This document shows, piece after piece, positions 30,118 through 49,968 of a DNA stretch of 64,000 bases. The notes below the pieces were generated by a model. The model was not told where the DNA came from, ran no database searches, and saw nothing but the letters and a program-made list of their open reading frames with translations. A program made the translations under genes and the position numbers. The stretch is taken from NCBI GenBank assembly GCA_037349105.1, contig JAYJMM010000039.1, forward strand, positions 3,516,001-3,580,000. The letters run 5' to 3'. The DNA comes from Limnomonas spitsbergensis (Eukaryota > Chlorophyta > Chlorophyceae > Chlamydomonadales). Positions within the stretch are counted from its first letter, which is position 1; every line of letters starts with the position of its first letter.

Positions 30118-30121
30118 CTTG
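30118..30121. other. Target-site duplication, left (CTTG)
   Basis: CTTG directly precedes the element end TGTCGCACC. The same CTTG follows the other end at 49965-49968. A 4-bp duplication fits a DDE integrase. Confidence 0.82.
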
Positions 30122-30366
30122 TGTCGCACCATAAAGCAGTAATCGTGCCAAAATGGTGTAAGCTGTCCTTACTGCCTTAGAGAGGCTAAAACTACTCACA
30201 ACTAAGGTTCAACACCTGTACATACGTGCCTCTTGTACTACACTGCTGAGGTACAAGGGCTGTAAAGGGGTAACTTGGTACAGCGTACCGCATAAGAGCT
30301 AAGGCTGGGATAAGGCTGGCCTGCCCGGGCGCCCCTAGCTGTGGGTACCGCCCCTACTTTACTCGC
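30122..30366 (-). repeat. Terminal repeat B2 (245 bp), outer end of the element
   Basis: Direct repeat of 31008-31252 with a single difference found (AAACTACT context, 30187 against 31073). It starts TGTCGCACC on the plus strand and abuts the target duplication. It overlaps A2 by three bases (CGC). Confidence 0.9.
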
Positions 30367-31005
30367 GATGGTTGCTTCGGGTCCGTGGTGGACTTCTTCC
30401 CCACTGAGTGGCGGACACCTACGGGCGGACTCAGCGTCTACACGCTGGCCGCGAATGCGCGGCGCGTTAAGCTGTGGTTGGAACTTCTAGGTGACAGGCG
30501 TGGAGCTGGTCGCTTGTAGAGCTGCGACTAAAGGCCTGTCGGGTAGCGAACCCTGCAGGTCGTTATGAGTCACTTACCGCGTGTAGCGGGCGAAACCGTA
30601 GCCGTAGACTGCGGACGACGTAGTCCTAGGCAGGGCTGGGCTTCGGGTTAGGTGTTCTCGTGCTTGCTAGATGGCGGGGTCGCTGTTCTAGGCTTGACTG
30701 GCTTAGTGGTACTGGCTTTGATGCACTTCACTGGGTAGGTCTCCGAGATCTAGCCGGTGCTGGTTACAAATAGAGGCCTGTCCACTTAAAAGGAACGAAG
30801 TGAACGTCAAGCGTGCAAGCCGGGATTCAAAGGTCCCGGCAAGCCCTATGCACTGAGTACGGGAAACCCTGCCTCAGACCTTCCCGAAAGTGGGAAGCTG
30901 GGCTCCTAACCCTAAAAAGGGGCTCCGCAGGGAAGCTGCGGAGTCTACGGGGACGCGTCAGCGGTCCCTACGGTTTTGGCACGTATACTGCATTATACCG
31001 TGACA
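30364..31005 (-). repeat. Terminal repeat A2 (642 bp)
   Basis: Direct repeat of A1 at 49323-49964, offset 18959, with no difference found by reading. It contains a perfect 8-bp hairpin (CTCCGCAG, loop GGAAG) at 30923-30943 and the sequence complementary to the primer-binding site at 30779-30802. Confidence 0.9.
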
Positions 31006-31007
31006 GC
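31006..31007. other. Two-base spacer at the A2/B1 junction
   Basis: A2 ends GTGACA and B1 begins TGTCGC on the plus strand with GC between them, giving the 10-base palindrome GACAGCTGTC. Both flanking ends equal the outer ends of the integrated element, as in a circle junction. Confidence 0.8.
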
Positions 31008-31252
31008 TGTCGCACCATAAAGCAGTAATCGTGCCAAAATGGTGTAAGCTGTCCTTACTGCCTTAGAGAGGCTCAAACTACTCACAACTAAGGTTCAACA
31101 CCTGTACATACGTGCCTCTTGTACTACACTGCTGAGGTACAAGGGCTGTAAAGGGGTAACTTGGTACAGCGTACCGCATAAGAGCTAAGGCTGGGATAAG
31201 GCTGGCCTGCCCGGGCGCCCCTAGCTGTGGGTACCGCCCCTACTTTACTCGC
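31008..31252 (-). repeat. Terminal repeat B1 (245 bp)
   Basis: Inner copy of B2. On the coding strand it directly follows the purine tract, the usual position for the start of a 3' LTR (U3). Confidence 0.9.
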
Positions 31253-31266
31253 CCCCCGCTCCTCAC
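31251..31266 (-). other. Candidate polypurine tract
   Basis: On the minus strand GTGAGGAGCGGGGGGC runs directly into B1. Position and composition fit the plus-strand primer of reverse transcription, though one T and one C interrupt it. Confidence 0.6.
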
Positions 31267-32160
31267 GAAACGCACACCGGGCGTGCGTGGGGAGCCGGAC
31301 TAGGGGTGGTACTGAAACTGAGATCGGAAAAATATGTACACTCAGAACTGGTGAGTTCCCTAACACGGAACCCTCCTAAACACCTGACTGCAATCCAACC
31401 AGTCGGTTTGAACAAAAGAAATCCACTGAAGAAAATCCACTGCAGGAAATTAACACAAGGAAATTCACCAAAGGATACTCACTGAAACCCGTGGCGAACC
31501 CTAGGTCCAACCAAGGTACCGAAAACTCGACTCAGGCCTCTGGGTTCCCGGTCTCTTTCTGGCCTGATCAGGGCATACAGAATCCGGTACCTTCACCATT
31601 GTCATGCTTGTTTGGAAGTCAAGAAAGGGTCAGAACCCCTGAAAAGCCATCAGAACTACGGGAAGCCAGCGGCCATCAGAATCCATCAGAAATCAGAAGT
31701 CAGAAATTATCAGACATCAGAACGCATCAGACCATCAGGAATTGTCAGAATTCCTCAGAAACCATCAGAAATCAGAAGTCAGAAATTATCAGACATCAGA
31801 ACGCATCAGACCATCAGGAATTGTCAGAATTCCCCAGAAATCAGAACGCATCGGAAACCATCAGAAACCAGAATCCCACAGAAACCATCAGAAATCTACA
31901 GCGGGTCGCATGAGAATGACCCGAATCTTCAGTGGGGCTGATCCGGGCCTACAGACTTCTCCTGTTATTCAACCCTGAGCTCTGCATAGGAACACGGAAA
32001 CCCGCTGCTCTCGCCCCACTGCACCGTTGACACCTGGCCCTAAGCTACAGGAGACGTGTGCAGTAGCAGCGGTGCTTCTCCCAACCCGCCTCTACAGGTG
32101 GCTGGCCCTGTGGCGGTTCTATGGCTATTATCCCGCCCTGTCCCCCTTGGCTGTCTGCCC
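31267..32160 (-). other. 3' untranslated region of the retrotransposon
   Basis: No coding potential of note. At 31680-31900 a tandem repeat of about 78 bases (twice, then fragments) built of CATCAGAA and CAGAACGCATCAG words is present. The TAG stop of the long frame is at 32161-32163. Confidence 0.7.
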
Positions 32161-35100
32161 CTAGGCAGCTGTCTCCTCCTCTGCTCTGGCTGCGTCGGTG
32201 GCCGCTTTGGCCCTGCGCTGAACTGCCCTGGGGGTGACGTTGGCTTCTCCTCTGCCCGTTGTGTATGAAATGTCATACAGCCCGTTGGGCATGGGCCTGG
32301 CGATGCCCCGCTCCATCTGTTTAGTGGCCGGATTGGTGGCCATGACCTCCACCTCTGGCTTGTCCATGGCTCCTGTCTCCTGGGCTGCTCTGGCGGCTGC
32401 CCTGGCTGCTCGGGGCGCTGTCTCCTCGTGATGGGCTGGTTTGTTCGGTACTGCTGCTGCGGCCGGGCCCGTCTCTTGGCTGGTCCTTGATGCTGGCTCG
32501 CACCTGGGGCACATCCAATCGCCCTCGGGTATGGCGTAGAGCGCTGGCGTGAGGCAGTCCATGTGCCAGCCGGTGTTGCATGCGTCGCACAGGAGCATGA
32601 CGTCCCCCCGGTCGGGTAGGCGGCAGGCTTCGCAGGACAGGCTGACGTTGGGCCTGGAGGTGCTGAAATCCACCCTGCCTTTCAGGTTGGGGAGGTGGCA
32701 CGGGGAGCAGTTGACTGCGTTCTCTGTTACGGTCAAGCCATCGGCGCCCTCCAGCACCAACGCCCCCGTCTCCCCCAGCCTCTGCACCCGCAGGATTTCC
32801 GGCCTGGCTTTGGGGTCGAGGCTGCGCCGCTCCGAAGCGTACCGGACGTACACGTAATCCCCAACGGCGAACCGCCTGACCTGGGGTACATATCCTCCTC
32901 CGCGGATCCTGGCGTAGCGCAACTTGTCCCGGTGCTGTGCGATCTTCAGGTGCTCTCCCGCGACCGGAAGGGCCTCCTTGATCCTGGCCACCCTGGCGAG
33001 GAGCAGGTCTGCGGCCTCCTCCACTGTTGCCACTCGCGCTGTACTCCACAGGTCTGCCCCGACCTTGGAGGGGAACACTGGCTTCTGCCCGTACAGGACC
33101 TCGTAGGGAGCCATGCGCGTAGCCTGCTGAGGTGAGCACCGGAAACCCAGCGCCACCCACGGGACCATCCTGTCCCACGAGTCGTCGCTGCTCCCGTCCC
33201 CGCAGCACTTGCGCAGGCCCGTCTTGAGGGTCTGGACAGCCCGTTCGGATAGCCCATCCGCCTGGGGATGGTTGGCGGAGGTGGTGCGATGGTCAATGAA
33301 GCAATCGAGTAACATGTCTTGGAACTCTCCCTGGAACTCTGTCCCCTGATCGGTGACCACCTCTGCGCATCCCCCAAACCGTGCAACCACGTTTTGGAAG
33401 AATGCCAAGGCCGTCACGTCAGACGCCTTGCTGGGGATGGGGATAAGCTCCACCCACTTGGAGTAGTGCTCTACACACACCATGACGTACCGGTTGCCCC
33501 TAGGCGTGGTAGTGAACGGCCCGCACAGGTCCACACCCCAGCGGAAAAATAAACCCTCAATAGGGAGTGGGTGCAGGTCTGGCTGCGTGTGATTGAACGT
33601 GGACGCCCTTGCCCTGTCGCACACCCCGCACTCCTGGACAGCCTTCCTGACCGCTGCTCTAAGCCCTCTCCACCAGTGCTGTTGCAGGATCATGAAGGCC
33701 GTGCGGTGGCTGCCGAAGTGACCGGTGCTAGCGTGAGCTTCCCTGATTACTGCCTGTCTGTCCTCGGGCCTGGGAACTACACACCGCCGTCCGTCTGGCA
33801 TCACCCTTATCAGCACGCCCCCCCTCTCTGGTTCCCACTGGAAAGGTGCGGCTCTGCGCTGCACCCTGGCCTGTTCCCCTGCTTCTGCCCCAGGGGGGTG
33901 CATTTTTGATTGCAGGTAGTGCAGGACTGGCACGTCTGTCCATACGTCCACCCGGGCTGCAGGCCCTGCTGCGCACCCTGGCGGGTCCACGACCTCCCCT
34001 GTTTCGTCGTCAGCTACCCGGACGGGATCTGGGTCTGGGTCAGACTGCCCACCTGGTTCCTGGGCTGCATCCGCCCAGTCTGCTGCCGCTGACTCCCCCA
34101 AGCACTGCCGATATGTTGCTGCCGCTTCGTCCTCGCCGGAGCATGCTTTGCCTGCACTGGCTAGGGCGCAATGTGTGGACGTCAGGGTCATGCCGATAGC
34201 CGGGTCGCGGTCCGGGCCTGGTAAGCCAGCCCTGCGGGCCAGCTCCCTAGGGATGATCTTGGCCGCCTCGAGGGCTATGGTGAGCCAAGCCTCGAGAGCC
34301 CAAGCATCCATGCACCTGCCCAAGGCGGCCCTCCTATCTCCCTCAGGGAAGTCTGGGCGGGGCAAAGTGGACCCCACTGCGTACCCCATGGCCCTCTCCC
34401 TTTCATTTGCATTTGGTTCCTGCAGGCCCCCCATGGGCCTGAAAACCATGCCGCTCTGCCCGTTCCGGAAAGCGTAGGATGCGGGGGTGGCCATGAGGCA
34501 GGGCAGCGCCCTCCTTGGTTGCCCAGACACATTGATGCGGTACCTGCCGTTATCGGGGCAGGCCACGACCTGCGCCCTACTACCCTCGTCCAGGATGTCA
34601 TCCACAATACCGTCGTGCGGCCTATGCGATGCCTGGATAACAAACTCAATGTCTGCAGCTGGTGCTAGGTTGCCCCAGTAGTTACGCGTGCGGTGGGCAT
34701 AGGAGCCCACTTGCGCTGCATCAAACAGGGAGGGCCTGCCCAGCATCCTGCACACCTCGCCGAAAGCCTCTACACTAGCCTTCTCGCTCCTCTGGTTTAG
34801 CTGCATAGCGACATTTTCAATCAGGTATGCTGGCGGCTTGGCCCTCTGCAGGATCTGCAAGGAGCCGAGCAGCTTGATAAGGGGGAAGAAAGACTTGCTC
34901 CTGGCCCCCTCGAGCCCCTTGCCCTTGCCTGCAGCCGACAAGTCATGGCACTCCCATCCTGCTACCATAAACCACTGGCGACCCTGCTGTGCCCCAGCCT
35001 CTATGAAGTGCTGGGCAGTAATGGAGTACACGTCCTGGGGTAAAGCCCTGAACGCCCCCTCGACAGCAGGCGCTGGGAGCAATAGCGGGTATTGCTTGTG

Positions 35101-38100
35101 CAGCTGCACCAGTCTCCCCCCTGCGATCTCTCGCATGGTGGCACTGGTGTCGGCATACAGATACTGGATGACCGGGATGCCTGCTCTAAGCACCATCTCA
35201 AGCCCGGAGCACATACCTCCGAAGGGCTCGAACAGGACCACTCCCTTCTGCTCCAGGGCGTACACCGCCGCTGTCGGTAGGCATGCCGTATCCACCCCTG
35301 CATGGAGGTGGGCCGGAGTCGAGCGGGGCAGATCGGTCAGCACATTGTTGATCAGGTCCCTGGCCCGGGCCCTGCTATTGAAAGCTCTTTCTGCAGTACT
35401 GGCAGGCTGTGCCTGCTCATCGTCCTCATCCTTTGCGCTGGAGATAGCCTGGCCGCACGGGGCCACTGTACATGCCGTCTCAGCGGCCCGCAGGCGGCGC
35501 ACGCCTCGTCTGCCCTCTTGTGCCAGGCGCACCACCTGATCTGCGTGCCACTGGTTTACCCTGCCTAGGCCTGTGAGTATAGCGACCTGAGATCCGCAGG
35601 TGGTCCCACTAGGGGTGTGTGGGTCAGGGGCGACATCGTCTAGCCTCGCTCCTGTGCGGTCGTCAGATGACGGGAGGGGTGACCTAGACGGGATATCTGC
35701 GTTCTGGTGGCAGGCCCCTGACCGGTGGACAATGGTAATGTCAAGCTCCTGGAGCATGAGTGCCCAGCGTGCGTGCTGCCCCACTAGGGCCTGGTTGTCC
35801 ATGAGATAGGTGAGGGGTTCGTGGTCTGTGACCAAATGCACCTTGCACCCAAAGAGCATATGACGGTACGTCCGGGCAGCGTACACAGCGGCGAACATTT
35901 CCCCCTGAAATGACGAGTAGTTCTTTTCGCTTTTGTTCAGGGAACGGGAAGTGCAGGCTACCATGTACTCCCTGCCGCTGTCGTCGCACTGCCCTAGCAC
36001 CGCCCCTATACCCTGTTTAGAGAAGTCGGTGTACAACAGGAATGGCCTTGGTGGCCCCTTGCCATCTGGACCCGTTCCGCTGTAGTCAGGTCTGCGTAGC
36101 ACCCTGCCTCCTTCGCACATCTCAGTTTTGATCAGCTGAAACGCATGGGCCTGCTCGGGACCCCACACAAACGGGACCCCCTTGACAAGCAATGCGTTGA
36201 TGCATGCTGCTTTGCGAGAGAAATCCGGGATGTAGCACCGGTAGAAGTTAAGGAATCCCATGACCTCCTGAATGTTCTTGACCGATGCGGGTTCGGGCAG
36301 AGCCATGACGGCCGCTATTTTGGCTGCGTGCGGTGTGAGGCCTTGGGCCGAGACGTTGTGGCCTAGGTACTCCACCGTGGCACACCCAAACAGGGACTTG
36401 TCAGGATGCGCTCGCAGTCCTACCGCGTGGAGCATGTCTAGCATGAGCTCGACATGCCTGATGTGATCTGCAGGTGTGTCACTATACACCAGCAGGTCGT
36501 CAATGAAGGCCACACAGAAGGAGCTCAGGCCCGCCCTGGCTATCTCTTCCTCCATCATACGCTGGAAGAATGGAGGCCCGTTGCGCAGTCCAAAGTTCAA
36601 CTTTGTGTACATCCATAGTTCTGGGCCCATCCAGAAAGCCGTTTTGGGCTGGTCCTCGACCTTGATCGGGATCTGCATGAATCCTGACCTCAGGTCCACC
36701 TTGCTAAATACTTTAGCTGTGCCCAGGTTCTGAAAGATAGTTTCCATCCTGGGGATAGCAAACTCCTGCTTGGCCGTGCGGAGGTTCATTCTCCTCATGT
36801 CATGCGCAATGCGGTGATCTGACCACTCGCCTGTCTCGGCACACTTCTTGGCCGCTACGACCGAGTTGGCCGCAAACTTGATGGGTCCTCCCTGGGGGAC
36901 CCTGACAATAATGCCTGCCTCTATCATGGGCTGGCACTTCTCTTTGAAAATGGCTGCTTTAGGGGGTGGCATGTCCCTTGCTTTCTGAAAGCACGAGCTG
37001 TGCTCGTCCTCTAGGGCCAGCGTAAACTCACCCTGTGCACCGCAGTAGCCTGGCAGTTCAAGCATGGAGTAGGCGAACGCCCCCTGACGGTCCCGTAGGC
37101 TCTGCTCCAGCTGCTCCTGCTGCTCCCCAGTAAAGTCGGGGTGCTTCCCGAGCAGCCACCCCTCCTCAGTTTTGACGTACTCGGAGGGTGCGTGCACCAC
37201 CCCTCCGGGCTGGAACATGTCGATGACTCCCCCTGCCAGCGGCTCCCCTGTGACTGCCTGTGGCCCTGCGCTGGATGTGCCCTGATCCCAGGTGCTTTGC
37301 GGACGGGGGGGCCGAGGGACGGGCATATCCACTGGGGGTCGCAGCCAACCAGGCTCCAGCTTGGCAGCTGCCTCCCTGCTGCAGACGAATGCTCCTTGTC
37401 CGGCAGTGAATCCCCCTCCTCGCACGCCCCTTCCGCTGGCCTGTGCCCCAGGGAGGCAGGAGAGCAGGAGCCACACCAATGCCAGGTGGCACAGGCAAGC
37501 TAGAAGGCCCCTGAACGCTGTGCAGGGAAGGAGACCCTTGCAGGCCGGCTGCTGTCTGGGGCTGGGCTGTGGTCCTGCAGGGGCTGCCGGTGACGGCGCT
37601 GCTGGCGGGCCCCGGTCCTCTGGGCCCTCCCGCCAGGAGATTTCCAGCTCCACCTGGCTGAACCTGGTGGGCGGCGATGGGCACCCTGTGCTGTTACTGG
37701 CGTCTTTTGCCGCTGCTTTCCTGCGTCGTTGGCGCGCGCGGGTCCTGGCGTTCCTTGCCCTTCGCGCTGCTGCGGCCCTGACCTTGGAGGAGTCCGCTGG
37801 TCTGTTTTCGCCCCTGCTGGTGGGGGTCTGATGTCCCTCTGCCGCTGTTGGACCTGTGCAGCCTGCAGCGGATCTGTAAGCGCCTTCCGGGCTGACAGTC
37901 TGGGCTCTGGCGCTGCTGCTGCTCCTGGCTGCGCTGCGCGGCTGTCTGCCCAGCTGGTGGGGCTGGAGCATCGTCCGCTGGATGGCCTGGTAGTTCCATA
38001 GGCTGGTTCTCTCCGGAACCCCCCACTCCACCGGCCAGTTGTCCAATGGTTCGCCTGCCTCTGGCCACCGCCCCTCGTCATTGGCCTTGATGAGCTCTGC

Positions 38101-41100: not shown

Positions 41101-44100
41101 CCACTGCACGAAGCAATGCCTAGGCCAGGGCTCGCCAGGCCCTGGGCCCGGTGCGTCGAGGTCCTCTGCGTCTTCTACTGCGCTGAGGTCGCTGTTTCCC
41201 CAGTGGTCTGGGTTCTGCGGCTCCTCTGGTTCCCACCACTGCTCTCTTTCGCTGGGTACTTCCTCCTGCGTCCCTGTCCTTTCTGTTGGTCCGTGCTCTG
41301 TCCTGCAGCTGCGGTGCCCGCTGCCTGCGGCTGGGGGCCGGCTGGTGACGCCCCCTGTGGCCCCATGGGCCTGCAGCGTGAAGCTGCTACCGCCTCCTTC
41401 CGCGGAAGCTGCCGGCCTTGGGCCTGCGGCGGGGGCCCCTGCCTCCGGGGTACCTGGGCACAACACGTCGGGGGGGTCGTAAATGTCCTGGGAAAGGTCG
41501 TCTGACTCTCCCTCCTGCCCTGAGGCCTCCCCTGATATCTCAGGGTCCTGTCTGTGGGCGCTGCCCTCTGACTCGCTGTTGCCCTGGTCTTCCCTGGCCC
41601 TGAGCGTGACTAGGAAATTTGCGAGCAAGGCGAGCCACCCCTCTTGAGGGGCTGGTGCTCCCATGCGTCGCAGGTAGTCCAGGAGTTCTAGGGCATGGGC
41701 TGTGCTCTTAGGGGCGTCTGCGGGCATGGTCAAGAGGCCATTGGTGGCAATTGCTTCCACGGCCACCCGCCAATGATGGATTTGCTGGGGCACCTCTCCG
41801 TTCCGTGCCTCCGTGGCCATCCCCTCTGGGTCCAACCCTGGCTCAGGCTCACGTCTTTCATGGAGGCCCCATGGTTGCCTTGCCTGCTCTTCCTGCCCTT
41901 CTAGGTATGCGTCATCCCACTCCTGTTCAAACCAGGTGTCTGGTTCGTTGAACCCTGGGTCGTGCCCCCTGGGGGTGGTGGCGAAGCACCCATGGGCCCC
42001 TTTGCCCGCCCACCTGGGTCCCTCCGGTGGTCCTGGCAGGAAGTTGGCGGGCGGGGCGCCTGCCTGCCTGGCTGCCCATACCTCGAATGACTCGTCCTTG
42101 GCTGCCTCGAACAGGTCGCGGAGGTGTTCGCGCTGCTGGCTGCCGCTGGGGGGTTCCTCCTGCCTGAAGCGACTGTATCCCGGGTTGTCCTGGGCTGGTG
42201 CTCGGCCCTCGTCCCCGCCGCTGGGCCTCCAAGGCTGGGCCTGCGGCTGGTTGCATTCGAAGGCTAAGTGGCCGCTACCTCCGCACTTGTAACATGCTTC
42301 CTTCTGGGTAGGGGGTGCTCTGCCAGTCCTGCCCCGGGCAGAGTCCTCCAGCGGCGCCCACCTGACCATCCTGTTCTCCCCTGGCTCCTCGGCTGTCGAA
42401 CGCCTTCCGGGGCTGTGGGCCTGGCTTTGCCGAATGGGGCTTCTGGCTCTGCCCTGCGGCCAACGCTCGCCGCGGGGGCTGCGTGGCGCCTCCCCTTCCC
42501 AGCGCCTGCCGCTCCCGCCCTCGGGTTCTCTGCTGCCGCGGTTGGGTGGGTTCCCTGGGGTAACGGGACTGCGGCTGCGGGTTCTTCTGTTCCTGCCTCC
42601 GCCGTCTGGGCTGAGGGCCTCCCTGCCCCTGGGCCGCTGGTTGCCACCGCTGGTGCCCTGCGGGGGTGGAGGTGGCCTTCTGTTTGGTGACCTCGCCCGA
42701 GGCTGCTGTGCGCCGTTCCTTCTCTCTGTCAGTTCCCCCGGCCAGCGCCTGTCCTGGTGCTGCTCGGTGCTTGGAGCCCGCCGCTCCCTGCTGTGGCTAC
42801 TGCGCCGTGGGCTCCTTTCCCTTGGCTGACGCTCTGCGGCGCTGGCGCTCCTGGGCGCCCTGCCGCTGTCGGGGTTGCGGCTAGGGCCGCTGCCTGACTC
42901 CCTTGCCCGTGGAGAGGGGGTGCGGCTGGCCCTTGCCTTGGGCTGAATTCCCTGCTTGGGCTGGGCTCTGTTGTCCCGTAGAGACTGCAACAGGTCCTCC
43001 GGGTAGTCCCTTAGGCCAGGGTCGTCGAGCTCACTCAGGACCTCCTGCACCTCAGTGGGCTTACCCCTGGGCGTTCCTTCTTGGCCGCCCTGTCCTCCTC
43101 CCCTGGCTTCCTTGCCTGGTGCCGCGTCCTGCTGCTGGGGCTCGACAGTTGTGTCTGCTGCAGGCTGCTGCTGCCTGGCCTCCCTGGCCCCGCTGCAGTC
43201 CTCCTGCTGGGCTCCACAGGGGCGCTGGGGGCCCGGCTCGGGGGCTGCCTCTGTGCCCTTGTACTCCTCCTTGTACCTCCTTTTGAGATCATCCACCTCT
43301 ATGATCCACTTGGCGCATTCTCCCTTCCACCGTGCCATCTCCCTATCTGAAGCGCCGTCCGCCATTGCCCGGGCCTGCTCCATTTTGAAGGAATAGATGT
43401 CTGCCTCCCTGCTGGCGATTCTCTGCCTGGCTGCGACCCGGATGGCCCTGTTCAGGACCTGGACCTGGGTCTCCAGGCTGCTGACGACGTCTGCCCTGGT
43501 AGCGTTTCTGTCTGCCTGCAGCTCAGACTCTGAATCAGTGGTTCCTTCATCGCTGTGGCTGGTGTCCTGAGTGTGCGCAACCGGAGAGCCTGGCTGGCAG
43601 CTGCCTCTGCTGTACGTGTCTACTTCCCGGCCCGGCTCGTTCTCCCGGAGCTCCCCTAGCCTCCGCTCGCATTCCTGGTCCGTATGCGATCTGCGCATGT
43701 CGCAATACGCGCAGGGGCCGTCCCTGTTGCGCAGGGCATTCCTGACCTCCTGTCGGACTGTGTGCTCCTGCTCCATGGCCAGCCTCGCCTTGTCCCGCGC
43801 TGCTACGGGAAGGTCCATGGCTTTGCCTTCCTTGTCCCGCGCTGCTACTGAGGGGCCCCCGGCTTCGCCGCCCTTGTCTCCGCTGATGGGCCGGCTCCCG
43901 GTACCCCTGGTACCGTCCGGATCCGCCGGCGCTGCGTGAGCCTGGGTCCGGGCTACTGGGTCTGCCTCTGGCGCTGCAGCAGGGTTGGTTCCCTTTTGCC
44001 CTGCTTGCTGGCGCGCTGCCTCAGTACCTGCGCCACGGGCCCCTTTGGTCTTGGCCGGCTTGGCCCCTTCTGGTGCTGCCGCAGGTGCCTCTGCCGCGGG

Positions 44101-47100: not shown

Positions 47101-47115
47101 GCTGCTGGGTCTGGG
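32161..47115 (-). CDS. Retrotransposon pol-like polyprotein, about 4,950 residues
   Basis: This is a single uninterrupted frame from the codon after TGA (47115) to TAG at 32161. No early AUG was found, so it is probably made by readthrough of the TGA. Counting from the Leu codon at 47016, the domains are: capsid-like helical region about 190-450; CCHC knuckle C541-C554; protease-like DTACS at D793; coiled coil about 1180-1253; second CCHC 1575-1588; Arg/Ser-rich tracts; unknown folded domain about 1966-2424; zinc-cysteine cluster 2714-2866; hydrophobic segment about 3170-3190; reverse transcriptase about 3360-3600 with FIDDLLVYS at 3504-3512; RNase H about 3655-3776; C5-methyltransferase-like 3928-4255; integrase 4428-4680; PHD finger 4795-4838. 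Typical Ty3/gypsy Pol is 1,000-1,500 residues, so this one is exceptional in length. Intact catalytic residues suggest a recently active copy. Confidence 0.93.
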   Translation of the reverse strand, partial: PRPSSPAASEQPRATSFQQDPAPRRASRQESHDLLRFVDQHSGQESQVDHIAEFLRGQAAQARGRPERSQGPSQGRRVVQEINPAGPTGGDYQQRQESRDDCLSASEAREYTGGTQPSRHSSYQPSRQAESEGGRSQDPARQPSEGSRPSGRRQSHLSADRRDQRDRRRQSPTRNGGGGSGSDPSMSGSEDTEGRGPGSSRESARRRRERIAQEQAETNIRLQQQMILQLAGGTRFTKIPNIQGNVPVLDMSHPGAVAARQYCQACSSWGSHNRLALSDEPPALAVVAGEIAGSCQSPSAMALLVRSLVDMWTAKPACVGPLVVAIRSAPQGDKASREVERIREAWRAPVEEPTCEVSLLTLWIRVVQREVGKPTSDERAAITGLKLGVKTTLDPGVKPEETVEAFAFRVMSTAELLQISRDAVDHFGRRHSVAHMFYEGLPEAVRVKLTAFIMTVPGYLHMTDEAQVEVLTQQVLLWERFALELGDLAAMDSRQGPGDHQQRSQGEQQAGRGRRDRPSQWEARPRGDGPGVAPYQNSSQPARQESRAKGVTWADQATALTTSTHSAGGAPKACFQCGSLDHLARDCRTPRARDERRPAPLATDITTGQARPPQQQYPPPPRPQGPPVNRTYDRNQGGRPAQRQPQGQAGHGQQSAHLSHLSGPSELAEPDGWHQTVAEMLSESVALLTQVGLAPKPGEYKQAAHNARPRSFRPSSSSEEEEEPLAVEHPSRKGEKRLALRRLADGLCDVRAQVGYINERLTALAHTTMPMGVTPVRGEPGWIGQGRKITISPRLQYFTNDRRDYSQCVGLMVKGKVLVAQKALMDTACSCHVITVNIAEQLVAMGAKLVRTDEKIRTTDNAGADLYGILFIYVVYGYGSPNAIVEKAAVRVVKTPPDAYEHLVGNPEFLKYGGVLEAAGRLTLFPQGGADGLTLPLELISPAGSHQAAAATWAGLDDPAWVPEEWPADWGEMNPDLTPQCAMVTGTGGGPATQTTVAANRVTRLPAAEAPAAAPEGAKPAKTKGARGAGTEAARQQAGQKGTNPAAAPEADPVARTQAHAAPADPDGTRGTGSRPISGDKGGEAGGPSVAARDKEGKAMDLPVAARDKARLAMEQEHTVRQEVRNALRNRDGPCAYCDMRRSHTDQECERRLGELRENEPGREVDTYSRGSCQPGSPVAHTQDTSHSDEGTTDSESELQADRNATRADVVSSLETQVQVLNRAIRVAARQRIASREADIYSFKMEQARAMADGASDREMARWKGECAKWIIEVDDLKRRYKEEYKGTEAAPEPGPQRPCGAQQEDCSGAREARQQQPAADTTVEPQQQDAAPGKEARGGGQGGQEGTPRGKPTEVQEVLSELDDPGLRDYPEDLLQSLRDNRAQPKQGIQPKARASRTPSPRARESGSGPSRNPDSGRAPRSASAAERQPRERSPRRSSHSRERRAPSTEQHQDRRWPGELTERRNGAQQPRARSPNRRPPPPPQGTSGGNQRPRGREALSPDGGGRNRRTRSRSPVTPGNPPNRGSREPEGGSGRRWEGEAPRSPRGERWPQGRARSPIRQSQAHSPGRRSTAEEPGENRMVRWAPLEDSARGRTGRAPPTQKEACYKCGGSGHLAFECNQPQAQPWRPSGGDEGRAPAQDNPGYSRFRQEEPPSGSQQREHLRDLFEAAKDESFEVWAARQAGAPPANFLPGPPEGPRWAGKGAHGCFATTPRGHDPGFNEPDTWFEQEWDDAYLEGQEEQARQPWGLHERREPEPGLDPEGMATEARNGEVPQQIHHWRVAVEAIATNGLLTMPADAPKSTAHALELLDYLRRMGAPAPQEGWLALLANFLVTLRAREDQGNSESEGSAHRQDPEISGEASGQEGESDDLSQDIYDPPDVLCPGTPEAGAPAAGPRPAASAEGGGSSFTLQAHGATGGVTSRPPAAGSGHRSCRTEHGPTERTGTQEEVPSEREQWWEPEEPQNPDHWGNSDLSAVEDAEDLDAPGPGPGEPWPRHCFVQWYPAGTDMPEVAATAAMITLPGAGADGLCRLQNHWCVPRGEVICVDRQAAMQAVARLVFPMDAVTAGLLAAAIKGHIRPSTAMEEFMSSTWPTPLYANCVSELLGSVVKEGITAAEEQFRTSQEIPDAAQAYGMWQHAHDGFMRTPWAENCVMTLARHPCLANQAVCVPTQAAARQAYALAALRDHSGYDGAGILHPGTPRQCPEIVERGQDIAREVMGQAVPWGYEPGDARVAIPVRLAVAHYHEDLEGQWTHPAPRAWIHMHATRDDQPVWFFFKTATQVQSDRFPSVERAEEHAVSTFRGTDPAVWTIMMMALNRTLLPGQMSAAVHNIEIVDELWAPQERADCPPHVSAHCAPAAGATAWQGEQALTLSAFAQGRLQSCLQQWMRVEQAAYYNGVPSILLPHWSAPAATVRLWWQRHPRGAVTLHPLFSGSNHDEALRDLTGLLDRGIADRQETPRGRWGAFRETTSPGSTHSPDETTLNMQPGSREHSFFTSLRGGNYEVDWPESDEENSLAGLPQLLQDSDSEEEPAATAGHTAPPEGRVAVPSEHTAPSAGHMQGDSQQSRATEGRPEPAATLGFQADTSPSWSRGLSDTNSEASNPDPEDPGAPRLAAEGEPDHRSVDLSKEQWDDELRQFVAQRDRQRLEGGAPWPVPQGGPEPRGGRIEASLRYRLSMVPNPSPDPRLQGRNQAAEELRQAFRGRLRALSEAQPPELEGDPGTDGAGTSGQSSGSGQERREPCAGCDQARAGERLIWCSACGMAWHDLCMRTPRTGAARVCQFCMTPEARLPSCLGCGESISPTEQPSRRCCRCHAKACGTCMDKPGIGGTRRGVWACCGCSDAVPPAWGHHSVHSEPCERCGKKGHDYHACPAPRLREGRCAICFHQGHLAMACPERNQSLGFIRQWQMEEDSRLGVRWWCSVQEALPGEREVVFKAAHSRATISDVRQAIEERRQDEANQARRGEQRPVPFREWYRETADQPLQPSMHAVQYAQILSIGAELIKANDEGRWPEAGEPLDNWPVEWGVPERTSLWNYQAIQRTMLQPHQLGRQPRSAARSSSSARAQTVSPEGAYRSAAGCTGPTAAEGHQTPTSRGENRPADSSKVRAAAARRARNARTRARQRRRKAAAKDASNSTGCPSPPTRFSQVELEISWREGPEDRGPPAAPSPAAPAGPQPSPRQQPACKGLLPCTAFRGLLACLCHLALVWLLLSCLPGAQASGRGVRGGGFTAGQGAFVCSREAAAKLEPGWLRPPVDMPVPRPPRPQSTWDQGTSSAGPQAVTGEPLAGGVIDMFQPGGVVHAPSEYVKTEEGWLLGKHPDFTGEQQEQLEQSLRDRQGAFAYSMLELPGYCGAQGEFTLALEDEHSSCFQKARDMPPPKAAIFKEKCQPMIEAGIIVRVPQGGPIKFAANSVVAAKKCAETGEWSDHRIAHDMRRMNLRTAKQEFAIPRMETIFQNLGTAKVFSKVDLRSGFMQIPIKVEDQPKTAFWMGPELWMYTKLNFGLRNGPPFFQRMMEEEIARAGLSSFCVAFIDDLLVYSDTPADHIRHVELMLDMLHAVGLRAHPDKSLFGCATVEYLGHNVSAQGLTPHAAKIAAVMALPEPASVKNIQEVMGFLNFYRCYIPDFSRKAACINALLVKGVPFVWGPEQAHAFQLIKTEMCEGGRVLRRPDYSGTGPDGKGPPRPFLLYTDFSKQGIGAVLGQCDDSGREYMVACTSRSLNKSEKNYSSFQGEMFAAVYAARTYRHMLFGCKVHLVTDHEPLTYLMDNQALVGQHARWALMLQELDITIVHRSGACHQNADIPSRSPLPSSDDRTGARLDDVAPDPHTPSGTTCGSQVAILTGLGRVNQWHADQVVRLAQEGRRGVRRLRAAETACTVAPCGQAISSAKDEDDEQAQPASTAERAFNSRARARDLINNVLTDLPRSTPAHLHAGVDTACLPTAAVYALEQKGVVLFEPFGGMCSGLEMVLRAGIPVIQYLYADTSATMREIAGGRLVQLHKQYPLLLPAPAVEGAFRALPQDVYSITAQHFIEAGAQQGRQWFMVAGWECHDLSAAGKGKGLEGARSKSFFPLIKLLGSLQILQRAKPPAYLIENVAMQLNQRSEKASVEAFGEVCRMLGRPSLFDAAQVGSYAHRTRNYWGNLAPAADIEFVIQASHRPHDGIVDDILDEGSRAQVVACPDNGRYRINVSGQPRRALPCLMATPASYAFRNGQSGMVFRPMGGLQEPNANERERAMGYAVGSTLPRPDFPEGDRRAALGRCMDAWALEAWLTIALEAAKIIPRELARRAGLPGPDRDPAIGMTLTSTHCALASAGKACSGEDEAAATYRQCLGESAAADWADAAQEPGGQSDPDPDPVRVADDETGEVVDPPGCAAGPAARVDVWTDVPVLHYLQSKMHPPGAEAGEQARVQRRAAPFQWEPERGGVLIRVMPDGRRCVVPRPEDRQAVIREAHASTGHFGSHRTAFMILQQHWWRGLRAAVRKAVQECGVCDRARASTFNHTQPDLHPLPIEGLFFRWGVDLCGPFTTTPRGNRYVMVCVEHYSKWVELIPIPSKASDVTALAFFQNVVARFGGCAEVVTDQGTEFQGEFQDMLLDCFIDHRTTSANHPQADGLSERAVQTLKTGLRKCCGDGSSDDSWDRMVPWVALGFRCSPQQATRMAPYEVLYGQKPVFPSKVGADLWSTARVATVEEAADLLLARVARIKEALPVAGEHLKIAQHRDKLRYARIRGGGYVPQVRRFAVGDYVYVRYASERRSLDPKARPEILRVQRLGETGALVLEGADGLTVTENAVNCSPCHLPNLKGRVDFSTSRPNVSLSCEACRLPDRGDVMLLCDACNTGWHMDCLTPALYAIPEGDWMCPRCEPASRTSQETGPAAAAVPNKPAHHEETAPRAARAAARAAQETGAMDKPEVEVMATNPATKQMERGIARPMPNGLYDISYTTGRGEANVTPRAVQRRAKAATDAARAEEETAA
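32503..32634 (-). other. C-terminal PHD finger of the polyprotein
   Basis: Pattern C-x2-C (CEAC), then CDACNTGWHMDC and a final CPRC, giving the C4-H-C3 zinc ligand order with the conserved Trp two residues before the last Cys pair (DWMCPRC). PHD fingers commonly read histone H3 tails. Here it takes the place where chromoviruses carry a chromodomain, so a role in choosing the integration site is inferred. Confidence 0.85.
32977..33735 (-). other. Integrase domain (HHCC and DD35E)
   Basis: H4428, H4433, C4463 and C4466 form the N-terminal zinc site. The catalytic triad is D4496 (WGVDLCGPF), D4556 (VVTDQGTEF) and E4591 (LSERAVQ), with exact DD35E spacing. It continues into an FAVGDYVYVR-type C-terminal domain. 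It catalyses strand transfer with a short staggered cut, matching the 4-bp target duplication. Confidence 0.93.
34252..35235 (-). other. Cytosine-5 DNA methyltransferase-like domain
   Basis: Motif I LFEPFGGMCSGLEM (F3932); motif IV VAGWECHDLS with candidate catalytic C4023 (the usual Pro-Cys-Gln is Glu-Cys-His here); motif VI YLIENV with E4067; motif VIII AHRTRNYWGN (R4109, R4111); late motifs NERERAMGYAVG (about 4204) and a final helix. It sits between RNase H and integrase. The order and spacing fit the C5-methyltransferase fold. Activity is uncertain because of the altered motif IV. Confidence 0.8.
35689..36054 (-). other. RNase H domain
   Basis: Starts PFLLYTDFSKQGIGAVLGQ with D3664, then SLNKSEKNYS..GEM (the Glu) and LVTDHEPLTYL (the second Asp), typical of Ty3/gypsy RNase H fused behind RT. 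Confidence 0.92.
36217..36939 (-). other. Reverse transcriptase domain
   Basis: RT blocks in order: RRMNLRT, FSKVDLRSGFMQIPI (first catalytic Asp), NFGLRNGPPFFQRMM, FIDDLLVYS (Asp-Asp at 3506-3507), LFGCATVEYLGHNVS. The wording is that of Ty3/gypsy elements. Confidence 0.95.
37447..37509 (-). other. Hydrophobic segment of the polyprotein
   Basis: About 20 residues (LLACLCHLALVWLLLSCL) just upstream of RT, flanked by Pro-rich and Gly-rich stretches. It could be a membrane anchor or a processed leader. No counterpart is expected in ordinary gypsy Pol. Confidence 0.5.
38419..38877 (-). other. Cysteine-rich zinc cluster of the polyprotein
   Basis: A PHD/RING-like array begins CAGC (C2714) and continues WCSACGMAWHDLC, further CxxC pairs, then two CCHC-type knuckles, CERCGKKGHDYHAC and CAICFHQGHLAMAC. 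Likely nucleic-acid or histone binding. Confidence 0.7.
39745..41121 (-). other. Unknown folded domain of the polyprotein
   Basis: Residues about 1966-2424 are Trp/Cys-containing, low in Pro and rich in predicted helix, unlike the disordered sequence on both sides. It begins HCFVQWYPAG and ends near LTGLLDRGIAD. I recognise no family. Confidence 0.55.
42253..42294 (-). other. Second CCHC zinc knuckle
   Basis: CYKCGGSGHLAFEC, a perfect C-x2-C-x4-H-x4-C about 1,030 residues after the first knuckle. It hints at a duplicated gag module. Confidence 0.85.
44377..44664 (-). other. Aspartic-protease-like segment
   Basis: VAQKALMDTACSCHVITVNI carries D793-T-A in the position of the D-T/S-G active site of retroviral-type proteases, followed by a hydrophobic strand pattern. 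The glycine is replaced by alanine-cysteine or shifted, so activity is uncertain. Confidence 0.55.
45355..45396 (-). other. First CCHC zinc knuckle (nucleocapsid type)
   Basis: CFQCGSLDHLARDC, C-x2-C-x4-H-x4-C, behind the capsid-like region (residues about 190-450, 45667-46449). This is the normal gag order. Confidence 0.92.
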
Positions 47116-47118
47116 TCA
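47116..47118 (-). other. In-frame TGA between the two retrotransposon frames
   Basis: The upstream frame ends ..LDVER then TGA, followed by CCC AGA. The long downstream frame is in exactly the same register (102 bases from the TGA to the codon at 47016). It is either a programmed readthrough stop or a single nonsense mutation. Confidence 0.9.
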
Positions 47119-48657
47119 GCGCTCTACGTCTAGCCGCTGGTTTCGGAGGCTGGGCTCACTGCTGGCTTCCAGGCTCTCCCATCTGGCCTGTCGTGCAACA
47201 GGAACGGTCCCTTCCGTCTGCTGCTGCCATTGCCCCTCCCTGCGGTCATCTTGCTGTGGCCTGGATGCCTCGAACCCTTCCCACTCCTCGAGCTCCTCTT
47301 GCTCTGATTCGGGCTCCTCCCGATCCCCTGCTGTGCCGTTGCACCACTTGTCGGCAAAGGCCTTGACAGCCAGAGCCGCCTCTGGCCCTGCTGGTCCTCT
47401 GGACACTCTGCGCAGGGCCGCCAGCAGCGTTGCTCGGTCCTGTCCCGTGTGCGGGATGCCCATAAGGGCCTTTGTTGCCCATTCCGCCAAGTGGTGGCTT
47501 TGGAACTCCTTGATAGCCCGGGCCTGATCGCTGAGGTGGACGAAACACTTGGAGCACACCTGCTGCCATAGCCGCCCTGCCCATTGCAGGATGTCTGCCC
47601 ACCCAATGGGCTGGAGTCCTGGTGGCTCTGCTGCACCCGGCTGGCTTATGCTCCCTGCGCGTTCTCCCACTGCCGGGCGCCGCTCTCCTGGGATGGGCGT
47701 CCACTCTGGATTGCTGAAATATCCGTAAAGGCTATGGGCCTGGCCGCTGTCCTCCTTTTCCCTGCTGGTGCCCTCTGCCACGGTCTCCTGGCTTGGCCTG
47801 TTTGCACTGGCTGGGAACCTGGACTGGGGTGTGCCGTATGTTGACGCCTCTGTTGCTTCCTCTGCCGGGATACGGGGCGGCCTTGCCTGTTTCACCCTGT
47901 GCAGATCTGGCCTGGGCGGGATTCCCGTTGGCGCCTGCATTCTTCCGTGCTGATCTGGCGGCACTACCTTGGCGTGTGGATCAGCCTGCGGCTGCCATAT
48001 TCTGGTAGCCTGCATTGTCGTGGCTTGTGTGTCGCTGTATTTCTGCAGCTCCCGTGGCCTCCCTGTTGTTTCCGCTGACTCCCCTTGGGACTGCTGTTCG
48101 CTGGATCTCGTCCGCTCCATCCTGACCATTGTTGACTGGACCATCCCCTTGACCACTGTGGGTTCAAGCTGGGGCTCCTGGTCTGGTCTGGGCTCAGCCT
48201 TGCCTCCTTCCCTTTCTGCCTCCGCAGGCAGGTCATCCGGAGGTCGTGCTGGCCCGCCACCCTCTCCTACACCACCGGTCTGAGACCTCACAGTGGGTGG
48301 CTCTGAGGTCGGATCCAGGGACTCATCGTCGGGAACCGGCCATTGCTCGTCCTCCTGGCTTGGGCCAGGGGGGATGCGCGCTATGCCGCCTCGTCCGATA
48401 CCCCTGCGCGTCACTTGAACCTGCACCATACCCTCATCCAAGGCTAGGGTGCTATCGGCCCCTTGGACCTTGTTTTCCATTGTGCCTGCATATTCACCAT
48501 CTGACAACCCAATGGCAATTAGCCTAGCTTCCTCTGCTACGGCTGCATTGATGGGTGTCATGGGGTCATTGCCTGGTTCCATTCCTCTCACTCGTGCACT
48601 GCGTCTTGCAGCCTCTGGATGCAGGTGACGATCATGATCTACCACTGCGTCCTGCAT
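47116..48657 (-). CDS. Retrotransposon first frame, 513 residues
   Basis: Begins with ATG at 48657, the first after an upstream in-frame stop, and ends at TGA 47116. The sequence is largely acidic and Gln/Pro-rich with low complexity. A more ordered, Trp-containing helical stretch lies at about residues 350-445 (GWADILQWAGRLWQQVCS...). It carries no zinc knuckle; capsid-like and knuckle sequence comes after the stop. It is probably an N-terminal gag portion or an accessory protein. The function is not recognised. Confidence 0.8.
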   Translation of the reverse strand: MQDAVVDHDRHLHPEAARRSARVRGMEPGNDPMTPINAAVAEEARLIAIGLSDGEYAGTMENKVQGADSTLALDEGMVQVQVTRRGIGRGGIARIPPGPSQEDEQWPVPDDESLDPTSEPPTVRSQTGGVGEGGGPARPPDDLPAEAEREGGKAEPRPDQEPQLEPTVVKGMVQSTMVRMERTRSSEQQSQGESAETTGRPRELQKYSDTQATTMQATRIWQPQADPHAKVVPPDQHGRMQAPTGIPPRPDLHRVKQARPPRIPAEEATEASTYGTPQSRFPASANRPSQETVAEGTSREKEDSGQAHSLYGYFSNPEWTPIPGERRPAVGERAGSISQPGAAEPPGLQPIGWADILQWAGRLWQQVCSKCFVHLSDQARAIKEFQSHHLAEWATKALMGIPHTGQDRATLLAALRRVSRGPAGPEAALAVKAFADKWCNGTAGDREEPESEQEELEEWEGFEASRPQQDDRREGQWQQQTEGTVPVARQARWESLEASSEPSLRNQRLDVER

Positions 48658-49297
48658 TGTACTATTGCTGGGTGCTGAGCAGCCGTGCCGGCTCGCTGTG
48701 TGGGCTCACAGCAGCAGGTCACTGGCTCAAAGCCTGCTTCCGTTCTCCTCTACCTTCTGCAGGCTGGTTAGGCGTTGCTAGACAGGTCAAGCACGGGTAA
48801 ATTTTTTAACCTGGTTCTGGCGGGTATTTTCACCTTCTGGACTGCTGTCTCGTCCGCTATCTTGCTGGTCTCGTCCGCTATTCCTCCGCTGATTCGTCGC
48901 GCAGCTTCCTCCTCGATCTCCGCAGGGCCTGCTCAGGCTGCAATCTGCAGCTTCGGGTATTCCTGCACACAGTCTTGGGTTGCCTGCTTTTAAACTCGGA
49001 TCCCAGATCCTTGCTCACTTCTGTCAACACGCAGGCTGTGCACTCTACCACGGATGCAGGCCACGTGCACAGGTAATATCAGCTGGGTTTATAACTCCAC
49101 AGCCTGATCTTCAAGCTACGTCTGCTTCTGGGTTGCCACGCCCAGCGCAAGCAGGAATTGACTTGGGTTCTATGGAGAATCCTCTGCTAAGTGATTTCGA
49201 GCTGTCCAAGGTAGATCACTGCCTTCAAAAAGAAATTCAAGTTCACAGCACATGCACCTTTAGCAGGATTCGCTGGATCAAGCTGATCAGGCTTAGA
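48658..49297 (-). other. 5' leader of the retrotransposon
   Basis: About 640 bases between the primer-binding site and the first ATG, with no long open frame. It would hold packaging and translation signals. None are recognisable. Confidence 0.6.
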
Positions 49298-49322
49298 CCC
49301 ACTTCGTCCTTTTAAGTGGACA
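49298..49322 (-). other. Primer-binding site, self-complementary type
   Basis: The first base after A1 (49322, minus) starts TGTCCACTTAAAAGGACGAA, continuing GTGGG. Twenty-three bases are complementary, with one bulged base, to 49738-49761 inside A1 of the same transcript. The 3' end of that A1 stretch would pair exactly at the A1 boundary, as needed to prime copying of A1. No tRNA-type TGG start is present. Confidence 0.75.
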
Positions 49323-49964
49323 CGCGATGGTTGCTTCGGGTCCGTGGTGGACTTCTTCCCCACTGAGTGGCGGACACCTACGGGCGGACTCAGCGTCTAC
49401 ACGCTGGCCGCGAATGCGCGGCGCGTTAAGCTGTGGTTGGAACTTCTAGGTGACAGGCGTGGAGCTGGTCGCTTGTAGAGCTGCGACTAAAGGCCTGTCG
49501 GGTAGCGAACCCTGCAGGTCGTTATGAGTCACTTACCGCGTGTAGCGGGCGAAACCGTAGCCGTAGACTGCGGACGACGTAGTCCTAGGCAGGGCTGGGC
49601 TTCGGGTTAGGTGTTCTCGTGCTTGCTAGATGGCGGGGTCGCTGTTCTAGGCTTGACTGGCTTAGTGGTACTGGCTTTGATGCACTTCACTGGGTAGGTC
49701 TCCGAGATCTAGCCGGTGCTGGTTACAAATAGAGGCCTGTCCACTTAAAAGGAACGAAGTGAACGTCAAGCGTGCAAGCCGGGATTCAAAGGTCCCGGCA
49801 AGCCCTATGCACTGAGTACGGGAAACCCTGCCTCAGACCTTCCCGAAAGTGGGAAGCTGGGCTCCTAACCCTAAAAAGGGGCTCCGCAGGGAAGCTGCGG
49901 AGTCTACGGGGACGCGTCAGCGGTCCCTACGGTTTTGGCACGTATACTGCATTATACCGTGACA
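49323..49964 (-). repeat. Terminal repeat A1 (642 bp), 5' end of the element
   Basis: Begins TGTCACGGTATAATGCAG on the coding strand (a TATA-like GTATAATG sits here) and ends CCATCGCG at the primer-binding site. A perfect hairpin lies at 49882-49902. Identical by eye to A2. Confidence 0.9.
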
Positions 49965-49968
49965 CTTG
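49965..49968. other. Target-site duplication, right (CTTG)
   Basis: Matches 30118-30121 and directly follows the GTGACA end. Confidence 0.82.

Follow-up and report, generated by a model that had tools for sequence, protein, structure and literature searches.

The 64,000-nucleotide stretch of Limnomonas spitsbergensis DNA analysed here (contig JAYJMM010000039.1, positions 3,516,001 to 3,580,000; called the window below) carries a Ty3/Gypsy-type retrotransposon that very probably keeps its integrase ends back to back inside its long terminal repeat (LTR) and has inserted its full copies from DNA in which the two LTR ends were joined. The unusual step in its life cycle would then be integration, from DNA with two LTR ends joined, and not replication. 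The parts of the element on which this account is built, where A and B are its repeats and PBS is the primer binding site, are as follows:

30122-49964, minus strand: whole element, 19,843 bases, plan A-internal-B-gc-A-B
49965..49968, minus strand: target duplication, left copy (CAAG on the element strand)
49323..49964, minus strand: A1, 642 bases, start TGTCACGG, end CATCGCG, identical to A2
49738..49753, minus strand: 16-nt PBS complement within A1, putative self-primer
49723..49727, minus strand: TGTAA in A, putative poly(A) signal judged by sequence
49300..49322, minus strand: putative PBS, TGTCCACTTAAAAGG..., adjoining A1
31250..31264, minus strand: polypurine-like tract, GAGGAGCGGGGGGCG; the left end of the complementary DNA (cDNA) would be at AGTAAAG (31249)
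31008..31252, minus strand: B1, 242-245 bases, end GCGACA
31006..31007: gc spacer in GCGACA-gc-TGTCAC, between the putative back-to-back integrase ends, conserved in relatives
30364..31005, minus strand: A2, identical to A1
30363..30364: A2/B2 seam, CATCGCG/AGTAAAG, read as a fossil two-LTR junction
30122..30366, minus strand: B2, end GCGACA
30118..30121, minus strand: target duplication, right copy

The repeats A1 and A2 show no difference over 642 bases and B1 matches B2 at 244 of 245 positions; the coordinates of A2 and B2 overlap by GCG, and B1 and A2 are two bases (gc) apart. CAAG (CTTG on the plus strand) stands immediately outside A1 and B2, the termini of the element are TG...CA, and the internal DNA between A1 and B1 is about 18 kb long. 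The start of A and the end of B form an imperfect inverted repeat (25/34 positions) whose halves lie back to back in B1-gc-A2; the palindrome at this B-gc-A site is GCGACAgcTGTCAC.

The 260-Mb genome contains 303 A/PBS, 1000 B-gc-A and 295 A/B junctions when up to two mismatches are allowed; the B-gc-A places lie mostly within satellite arrays (among the 100 listed), as do many of the A/B junctions. Thirty further copies were selected by exact A/PBS and A/B junctions about 15-20 kb apart, and 29 of them have a complete A1 preceded by foreign DNA and B-A-B/flank at the other end, the remaining one (C101) having a cut A1. Perfect 4-bp target duplications flank 27 of the 30 (26 found by script and C102, with TGTA/TGTA, by eye; an older fragment of an A-B relative lies about 100 bases upstream in the C102 flank and is not joined at the end site), and the three without one are C9:4438344, C36:311053 and C101. 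Fifteen additional paired insertions gave 14 perfect duplications and a near miss (C116, TGGC/TGGA), so that 41 of 45 paired insertions in all have a perfect duplication, where the chance probability per 4-bp match is about 1/256. Some paired insertions are subfamilies with ends just 8-16 kb apart, and a solo A-B copy is likewise flanked by a duplication, CTTT.

No copy of the form flank/B-A...B-A was present among these 30 copies and 40 further 5' sites selected by A/PBS alone (one of which, L087, is odd; see below). Integrated copies thus do not have the identical full LTRs at both termini that are expected of a Ty3/Gypsy element; they do have the TG..CA termini and, in the 41 of 45, the 4-6 bp duplication of that group. 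Their split direct repeats, A-internal-B-A-B, are those of PAT/TOC elements, and neither the tyrosine recombinase nor the absence of a target duplication that goes with that group was found. An earlier note on this DNA, made from the window's letters, had described the A1-internal-B1-A2-B2 plan with its TG..CA ends and CTTG duplication, and had stressed the combination of PAT/TOC-like split repeats with a genuine target duplication; both observations hold across the copies; the genome-wide search yielded hundreds of junctions, and none of the 30 and 40 sites examined has the ordinary B-A...B-A form that would speak against them. The misassembly of the 30122-31252 region that it had considered is ruled out by the recurrence of the plan in dozens of copies.

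Sequences derived from the LTR also occur as arrays. C15:1174556-1215570 (which reaches to less than 1 kb from the contig end) and C18 (10347 to at least 144520) are head-to-tail arrays of ~885-base A-B units; C69:955950-986319 is an array of ~547-base units that contain the purine tract and the start of B, in both orientations; and C84:280231-308215 has seven A/PBS junctions spaced ~4,650-4,666 bases, which are perhaps tandem short non-autonomous derivatives. L141 (C123) is a purine tract-B-A-B-A-B-A-PBS-internal tandem and L139 (C28) is B-A-B-A.

The PBS is complementary, over 16-24 nt, to a site about 212-227 bases into A, a 16-nt PBS/A self-complementarity that was reached in 0 of 2000 shuffles; complementarity of the PBS to the element's own LTR is the Tf1-type arrangement, and priming is probably by the element's own RNA, with the complementary site in A presumably lying in the R region. 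The PBS adjoins A1 and the purine tract adjoins B1 in 31/31 copies, 30 of which had been selected by exact A/PBS and A/B junctions. Given where the PBS and the purine tract lie, just past A1 and just ahead of B1, reverse transcription would generate an LTR of the form B-gc-A, and since A starts and B ends back to back within it, the integrase ends would lie inside the LTR; reverse transcription itself should yield an ordinary B-A...B-A cDNA. TGTAA is the poly(A) signal of Chlamydomonas, and we take the TGTAA just past the primer site in A to serve as one here; we saw none in B, and the RNA is therefore expected to stop in A2, short of B2. With the signals placed in this way, B2 would not come from ordinary reverse transcription: it would represent the left LTR's B, attached to the right LTR's A.

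Both repeats appear to be remade in each cycle from one molecule. Within the 30 copies, A1 and A2 differ by 59 substitutions in 19261 positions and B1 and B2 by 30 in 7271 (Fisher p 0.19), and the only recurrent same-way differences among these 89 substitutions are at two A positions (two copies each) and at no B position; the length of B varies from 226 to 246 among copies and is equal within each copy except one (233/234). This similar divergence of A and B, together with the concordant B lengths, is the basis of the above statement. Pure DNA transposition (Ginger-like, with inverted repeats and a 4-bp duplication) was rejected, since A1/A2 and B1/B2 are remade per copy, and the joining of different cDNA molecules is unlikely, since B subtypes are concordant within copies with the one at 233/234.

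If B2 was joined to A2, the seam between them should record the joint. A total of 126 seams (73 + 53) were listed by searches that require exact flanks and a limited gap, and which miss a seam if its flanks are mutated or if, as at L101, its insert is longer. No extra base is present in 95 of these, and 31 have inserts: T (13 seams, or 10 once the arrays at C71 and C95 are collapsed), TG (6), TGT (1), A (6), C (2), G (2) and TGTATGT (1). Each of the seven inserts of two or three bases is identical to the first bases of the PBS, with a chance probability of ~1e-9 if equal base use is assumed, although two of them, both at C111, may be one event. At L101 (C103) about 20 PBS bases, near the length of the self-complementary stretch, lie between A and B, and at L071 (C21) A is followed by about 25 PBS bases and then inverted A; L071 and L101 are B-A ends continued by ~25 and ~20 PBS bases, respectively, and then by inverted A or B. 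Such PBS bases are what an unremoved primer would leave at a joint. An A2/B2 seam carried in the RNA is rejected by these variable, PBS-matching inserts and by L101.

Missing bases were found at none of 72 seams in a wider-gap search, whose pattern excludes inserts as long as that of L101. The purine-tract boundary, unlike the seam, would be copied and not joined; it is free of insertions at 100 of the 100 places listed (of 285), 41 of which are in the C69 satellite and four of which have one substitution. Eight copies with variant seams could be paired with their 5' ends, and seven of these (C39, C111, C95, C92, C103, C71 and C9) have a perfect duplication of their own, C116 being the one that does not. 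With their own duplications, variable seams and concordant repeats, most insertions seem to have formed a joint of their own, inside a single molecule.

These observations suggest the following route. An RNA would extend from the R region in A1 to the poly(A) site in A2, and self-priming at the PBS and use of the purine tract would convert it into a linear cDNA, B-gc-A-internal-B-gc-A, a form suggested by the positions of these sites and by the identity of the repeats. The U5 end (A, usually with 0-3 primer-site bases) would then be joined to the U3 end (B) in a two-LTR circle or its equivalent; the sequence of the joint is directly visible in the seams, and the circle we infer from it. The DDE integrase would finally cut the palindrome GCGACA^gc^TGTCAC in the 5' LTR and insert A-internal-B-gc-A/B with a 4-bp duplication, where the insert and the duplication are observed and the cleavage is deduced from them.

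The back-to-back site recurs beyond this family. The 16-base palindrome occurs at 263 places in the genome with at most one mismatch, versus 3 for the reversed control. A second family in this genome has a purine tract and B' (~55 bases), CTCGTGACAgcTGTCACGACG and A' (~800 bases), and A'/B' seams are present in L149 and L083. The palindrome follows pol in three of five distant relatives (L144, L145 and L146), contigs with 44-48% protein identity that occur as contaminants in genome records of bacteria and archaea. The order can be read in L145 (purine tract, short B, gc, A, self-complementary PBS), where B is apparently shorter than A; L144 has no self-complementary pair of at least 10 nt, L147 and L148 have no palindrome in contigs that stop 420-511 bases past the match, and 18 pattern matches in viral contigs included no relatives. 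On balance we favour the view that throughout a green-algal Gypsy lineage integration requires two-LTR DNA, with its ends joined, and uses an attachment site embedded in the LTR, with rather less assurance than we have in the route of the present element.

The proteins encoded by the element are those of the Ty3/Gypsy group, with additions:

47116..48657, minus strand: open reading frame 1 (ORF1), 513 amino acids
32161..47016, minus strand: ORF2, 4951 amino acids, an open frame as it stands
42250..42297, minus strand: CCHC zinc knuckle, ORF2 residues 1574-1589 (Pfam)
36352..36804, minus strand: reverse transcriptase, residues 3405-3555 (Pfam, E 2e-21)
35746..36051, minus strand: RNase H, residues 3656-3757 (Pfam, E 6e-29)
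34237..35319, minus strand: region with Dnmt3-like C5 methyltransferase domain (best match DNMT3A, E 6.5e-6)
33265..33768, minus strand: integrase, H2C2 zinc binding and rve core, D,D35E
32500..32634, minus strand: PHD finger, downstream of the integrase (Pfam)

The order reverse transcriptase, RNase H and then DDE integrase with H2C2 is that of Ty3/Gypsy. The best Protein Data Bank match of the integrase is Ty3 Gag-Pol (7q5b, E 6e-18), and its D, D and E, the last two 35 residues apart, are invariant among 18 aligned sequences, itself included. At E 0.01 Pfam found nothing in ORF1 and no tyrosine recombinase in ORF1 or ORF2; the Dnmt3-like domain is weak in Pfam (E 0.001) and under its cut-off. 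Relatives (120 listed of 933) include proteins of Haematococcus, Pleodorina, Chlamydomonas and Monoraphidium. The WEC motif of the Dnmt3-like domain is present in 60 of the 120, Haematococcus and Monoraphidium among them, and our pattern for the PHD motif in 0 of 120, yet Pfam assigns PHD to most of those proteins; such motif counts are crude lower bounds.

Several points weigh against the proposed route. The joining of ends is well supported by the seams; the circle, its cleavage and the choice of site are reconstructions from sequence. A circle would contain two identical B-gc-A sites, and if the other were opened, A-B-A-internal-B would result. That form could not have shown up in the 30 junction-selected copies, which were chosen by their 3'-side seam; the sample able to reveal it consists of the 40 5' sites selected by A/PBS alone (of 100 listed): 36 read flank/A/PBS/internal (~32 distinct sites, given the shared-flank duplicates L074/L075, L086/L088 and L095-L097), two are B-A ends (L071 and L101), one is a fragment (L082) and one is L087. 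A-B-A-internal was found at 0 of these 40, and on this count a two-LTR circle that opens at random, at one site or the other, is rejected. Since two equal sites have one outcome, the site nearer the joint would somehow be preferred; the route would need a directional rule of this kind. We propose that the preference may be set by distance from the joint, B being shorter than A in both families measured.

The extra A-B is absent at 4 of the 12 3' ends that had no known seam and were picked by their purine tract; one-LTR circles might be the source of such ends, or recombination at a later time. Paired insertions usually have one A-B unit after B1; there is none at C19 and C58 (both with duplications), and there are two at C20 and, by coordinates, C95, and three, by coordinates, at C71. 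The single extra A, C or G at 10 of the 31 variant seams is unlike a primer remnant. In the second family, one of three seams (L151) lacks about 30 bases of B', and the A' end in L083 differs.

The odd site L087 (C82:1464093-1466433) has a 5' end that starts with inverted B (TGTCGCACC) folded back onto B-gc-A-PBS, an arrangement that a snap-back of the left cDNA end prior to integration might produce.

The one-sidedness of the 5' ends would also be accounted for if cutting came first and joining later. The integrase would cut the linear cDNA at the B-gc-A of its 5' LTR and keep the short B piece in the integrase complex, both pieces would be inserted, and the A/B break would be sealed at the target; the absence of A-B-A-internal follows if the site nearer a DNA end is preferred, and the shorter B of both families, and apparently of L145, is in keeping with this. 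The scheme requires retention of a short fragment and near-lossless repair, as 72 of 72 seams lack no base (the family-2 seam L151 does have part of B' missing), and we regard it as unlikely. More doubtful still is PAT/TOC-like replication, in which an RNA would run from A1 to B2, the seam would be copied from that RNA, and the ends would be completed on a B1-A2 template. The repeat plan does equal that described for PAT/TOC elements in PMC4157794, but the bases added at seams agree with the primer site and differ between insertions, B1/B2 are not significantly older than A1/A2, TGTAA is in A with none seen in B, and the two scanned ORFs have no tyrosine recombinase in an element with a 4-bp duplication. 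Chance rearrangement or misassembly of a single ordinary LTR element, for which the odd plan itself and nothing further speaks, is already refuted by the counts: dozens of copies with their own duplications share the structure, a second family has the plan as well, and other organisms have the palindrome.

Other features of the window include a TCAGAA-rich 79-base tandem repeat (2.1 copies, 31676-31840) between ORF2 and the purine tract, and large simple tandem arrays in the element's flanks at 59910-60864 (17-base units) and 16637-17066 (43-base units), where the long frames are probably spurious. Proline-rich minus-strand frames at 1004-3538 resemble, we presume, volvocine pherophorins.

An element that seems to depend on joined ends would demonstrate that this mode of action is open to a DDE integrase in nature, and would explain how DDE and tyrosine-recombinase elements share one repeat plan, the PAT plan having then been reached convergently. 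Every full integrated copy would be a readable fossil of its own two-LTR junction, and from the seams one could read, for many insertions made in nature, how the primer was removed and the ends were joined; such elements may be mishandled by LTR finders and by LTR-age methods. No integration of an LTR element through a site inside the LTR appeared among the literature matches listed, which were titles and abstract openings and covered few subscription papers.

How, then, does the element compare with known systems? It resembles Ty3/Gypsy elements in its reverse transcriptase-RNase H-integrase order, PBS, purine tract, TG..CA ends and 4-bp duplication, and the complete DD35E integrase named in the earlier note is borne out by the Pfam domains, the 18-sequence alignment and the Ty3 match; it differs in that the integrase ends would be inside the LTR and not at the cDNA ends, and in that the integrated copy is permuted. 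The hybrid replication suggested in that note is not needed, since the PBS, the purine tract and the R-like region are compatible with LTR reverse transcription of the ordinary kind, which is probably self-primed here. Its further suggestion of an integration route not previously described is right in that the route is unusual, with LTR ends joined, and has to yield in that the repeat plan was already reported for KnitGypsy-Dnmt3 of the charophyte Klebsormidium nitens, which the Fig. 4 legend of de Mendoza 2018 (PMC5890265) describes as having DIRS-element repeat structure with Gypsy domains. By that description KnitGypsy-Dnmt3 is alike in its Gypsy domains, Dnmt3-like domain inside Pol and DIRS-like repeats, and its plan was reported without mechanism; in the parts of the paper covered, no mechanism or target duplication was found for it, and the words "target site" are nowhere in the main text. 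The same paper places the Dnmt3 gain in the K. nitens lineage, and the relatives above suggest that this capture may be older or wider.

The PAT/TOC/Kangaroo elements (DIRS order), described as occurring in green algae with split repeats, a tyrosine recombinase and no target duplication (PMC4157794, PMC3266345), share the A-internal-B-A-B split direct repeats; here they are combined with a DD35E integrase and 4-bp duplications. Tf1/Sushi and Tcn1 self-prime from a PBS complementary to the element's own RNA and not to a tRNA (as given in PMC6317226), a likeness in the manner of priming. Foamy virus integrase is reported to cut a two-LTR junction palindrome with two bases between CA and TG (PMC1180852), as in the present palindrome, but that palindrome is the LTR-LTR joint, whereas here it is inside the LTR and the joint is elsewhere. 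Finally, the circle-junction model of Panganiban and Temin 1984, proposed and, according to PMC11054761, later rejected for retroviruses, likewise has integration proceed from an internal copy of the junction; there the site was engineered in a retrovirus, and here, if our account is correct, the element is a natural counterpart of that route.

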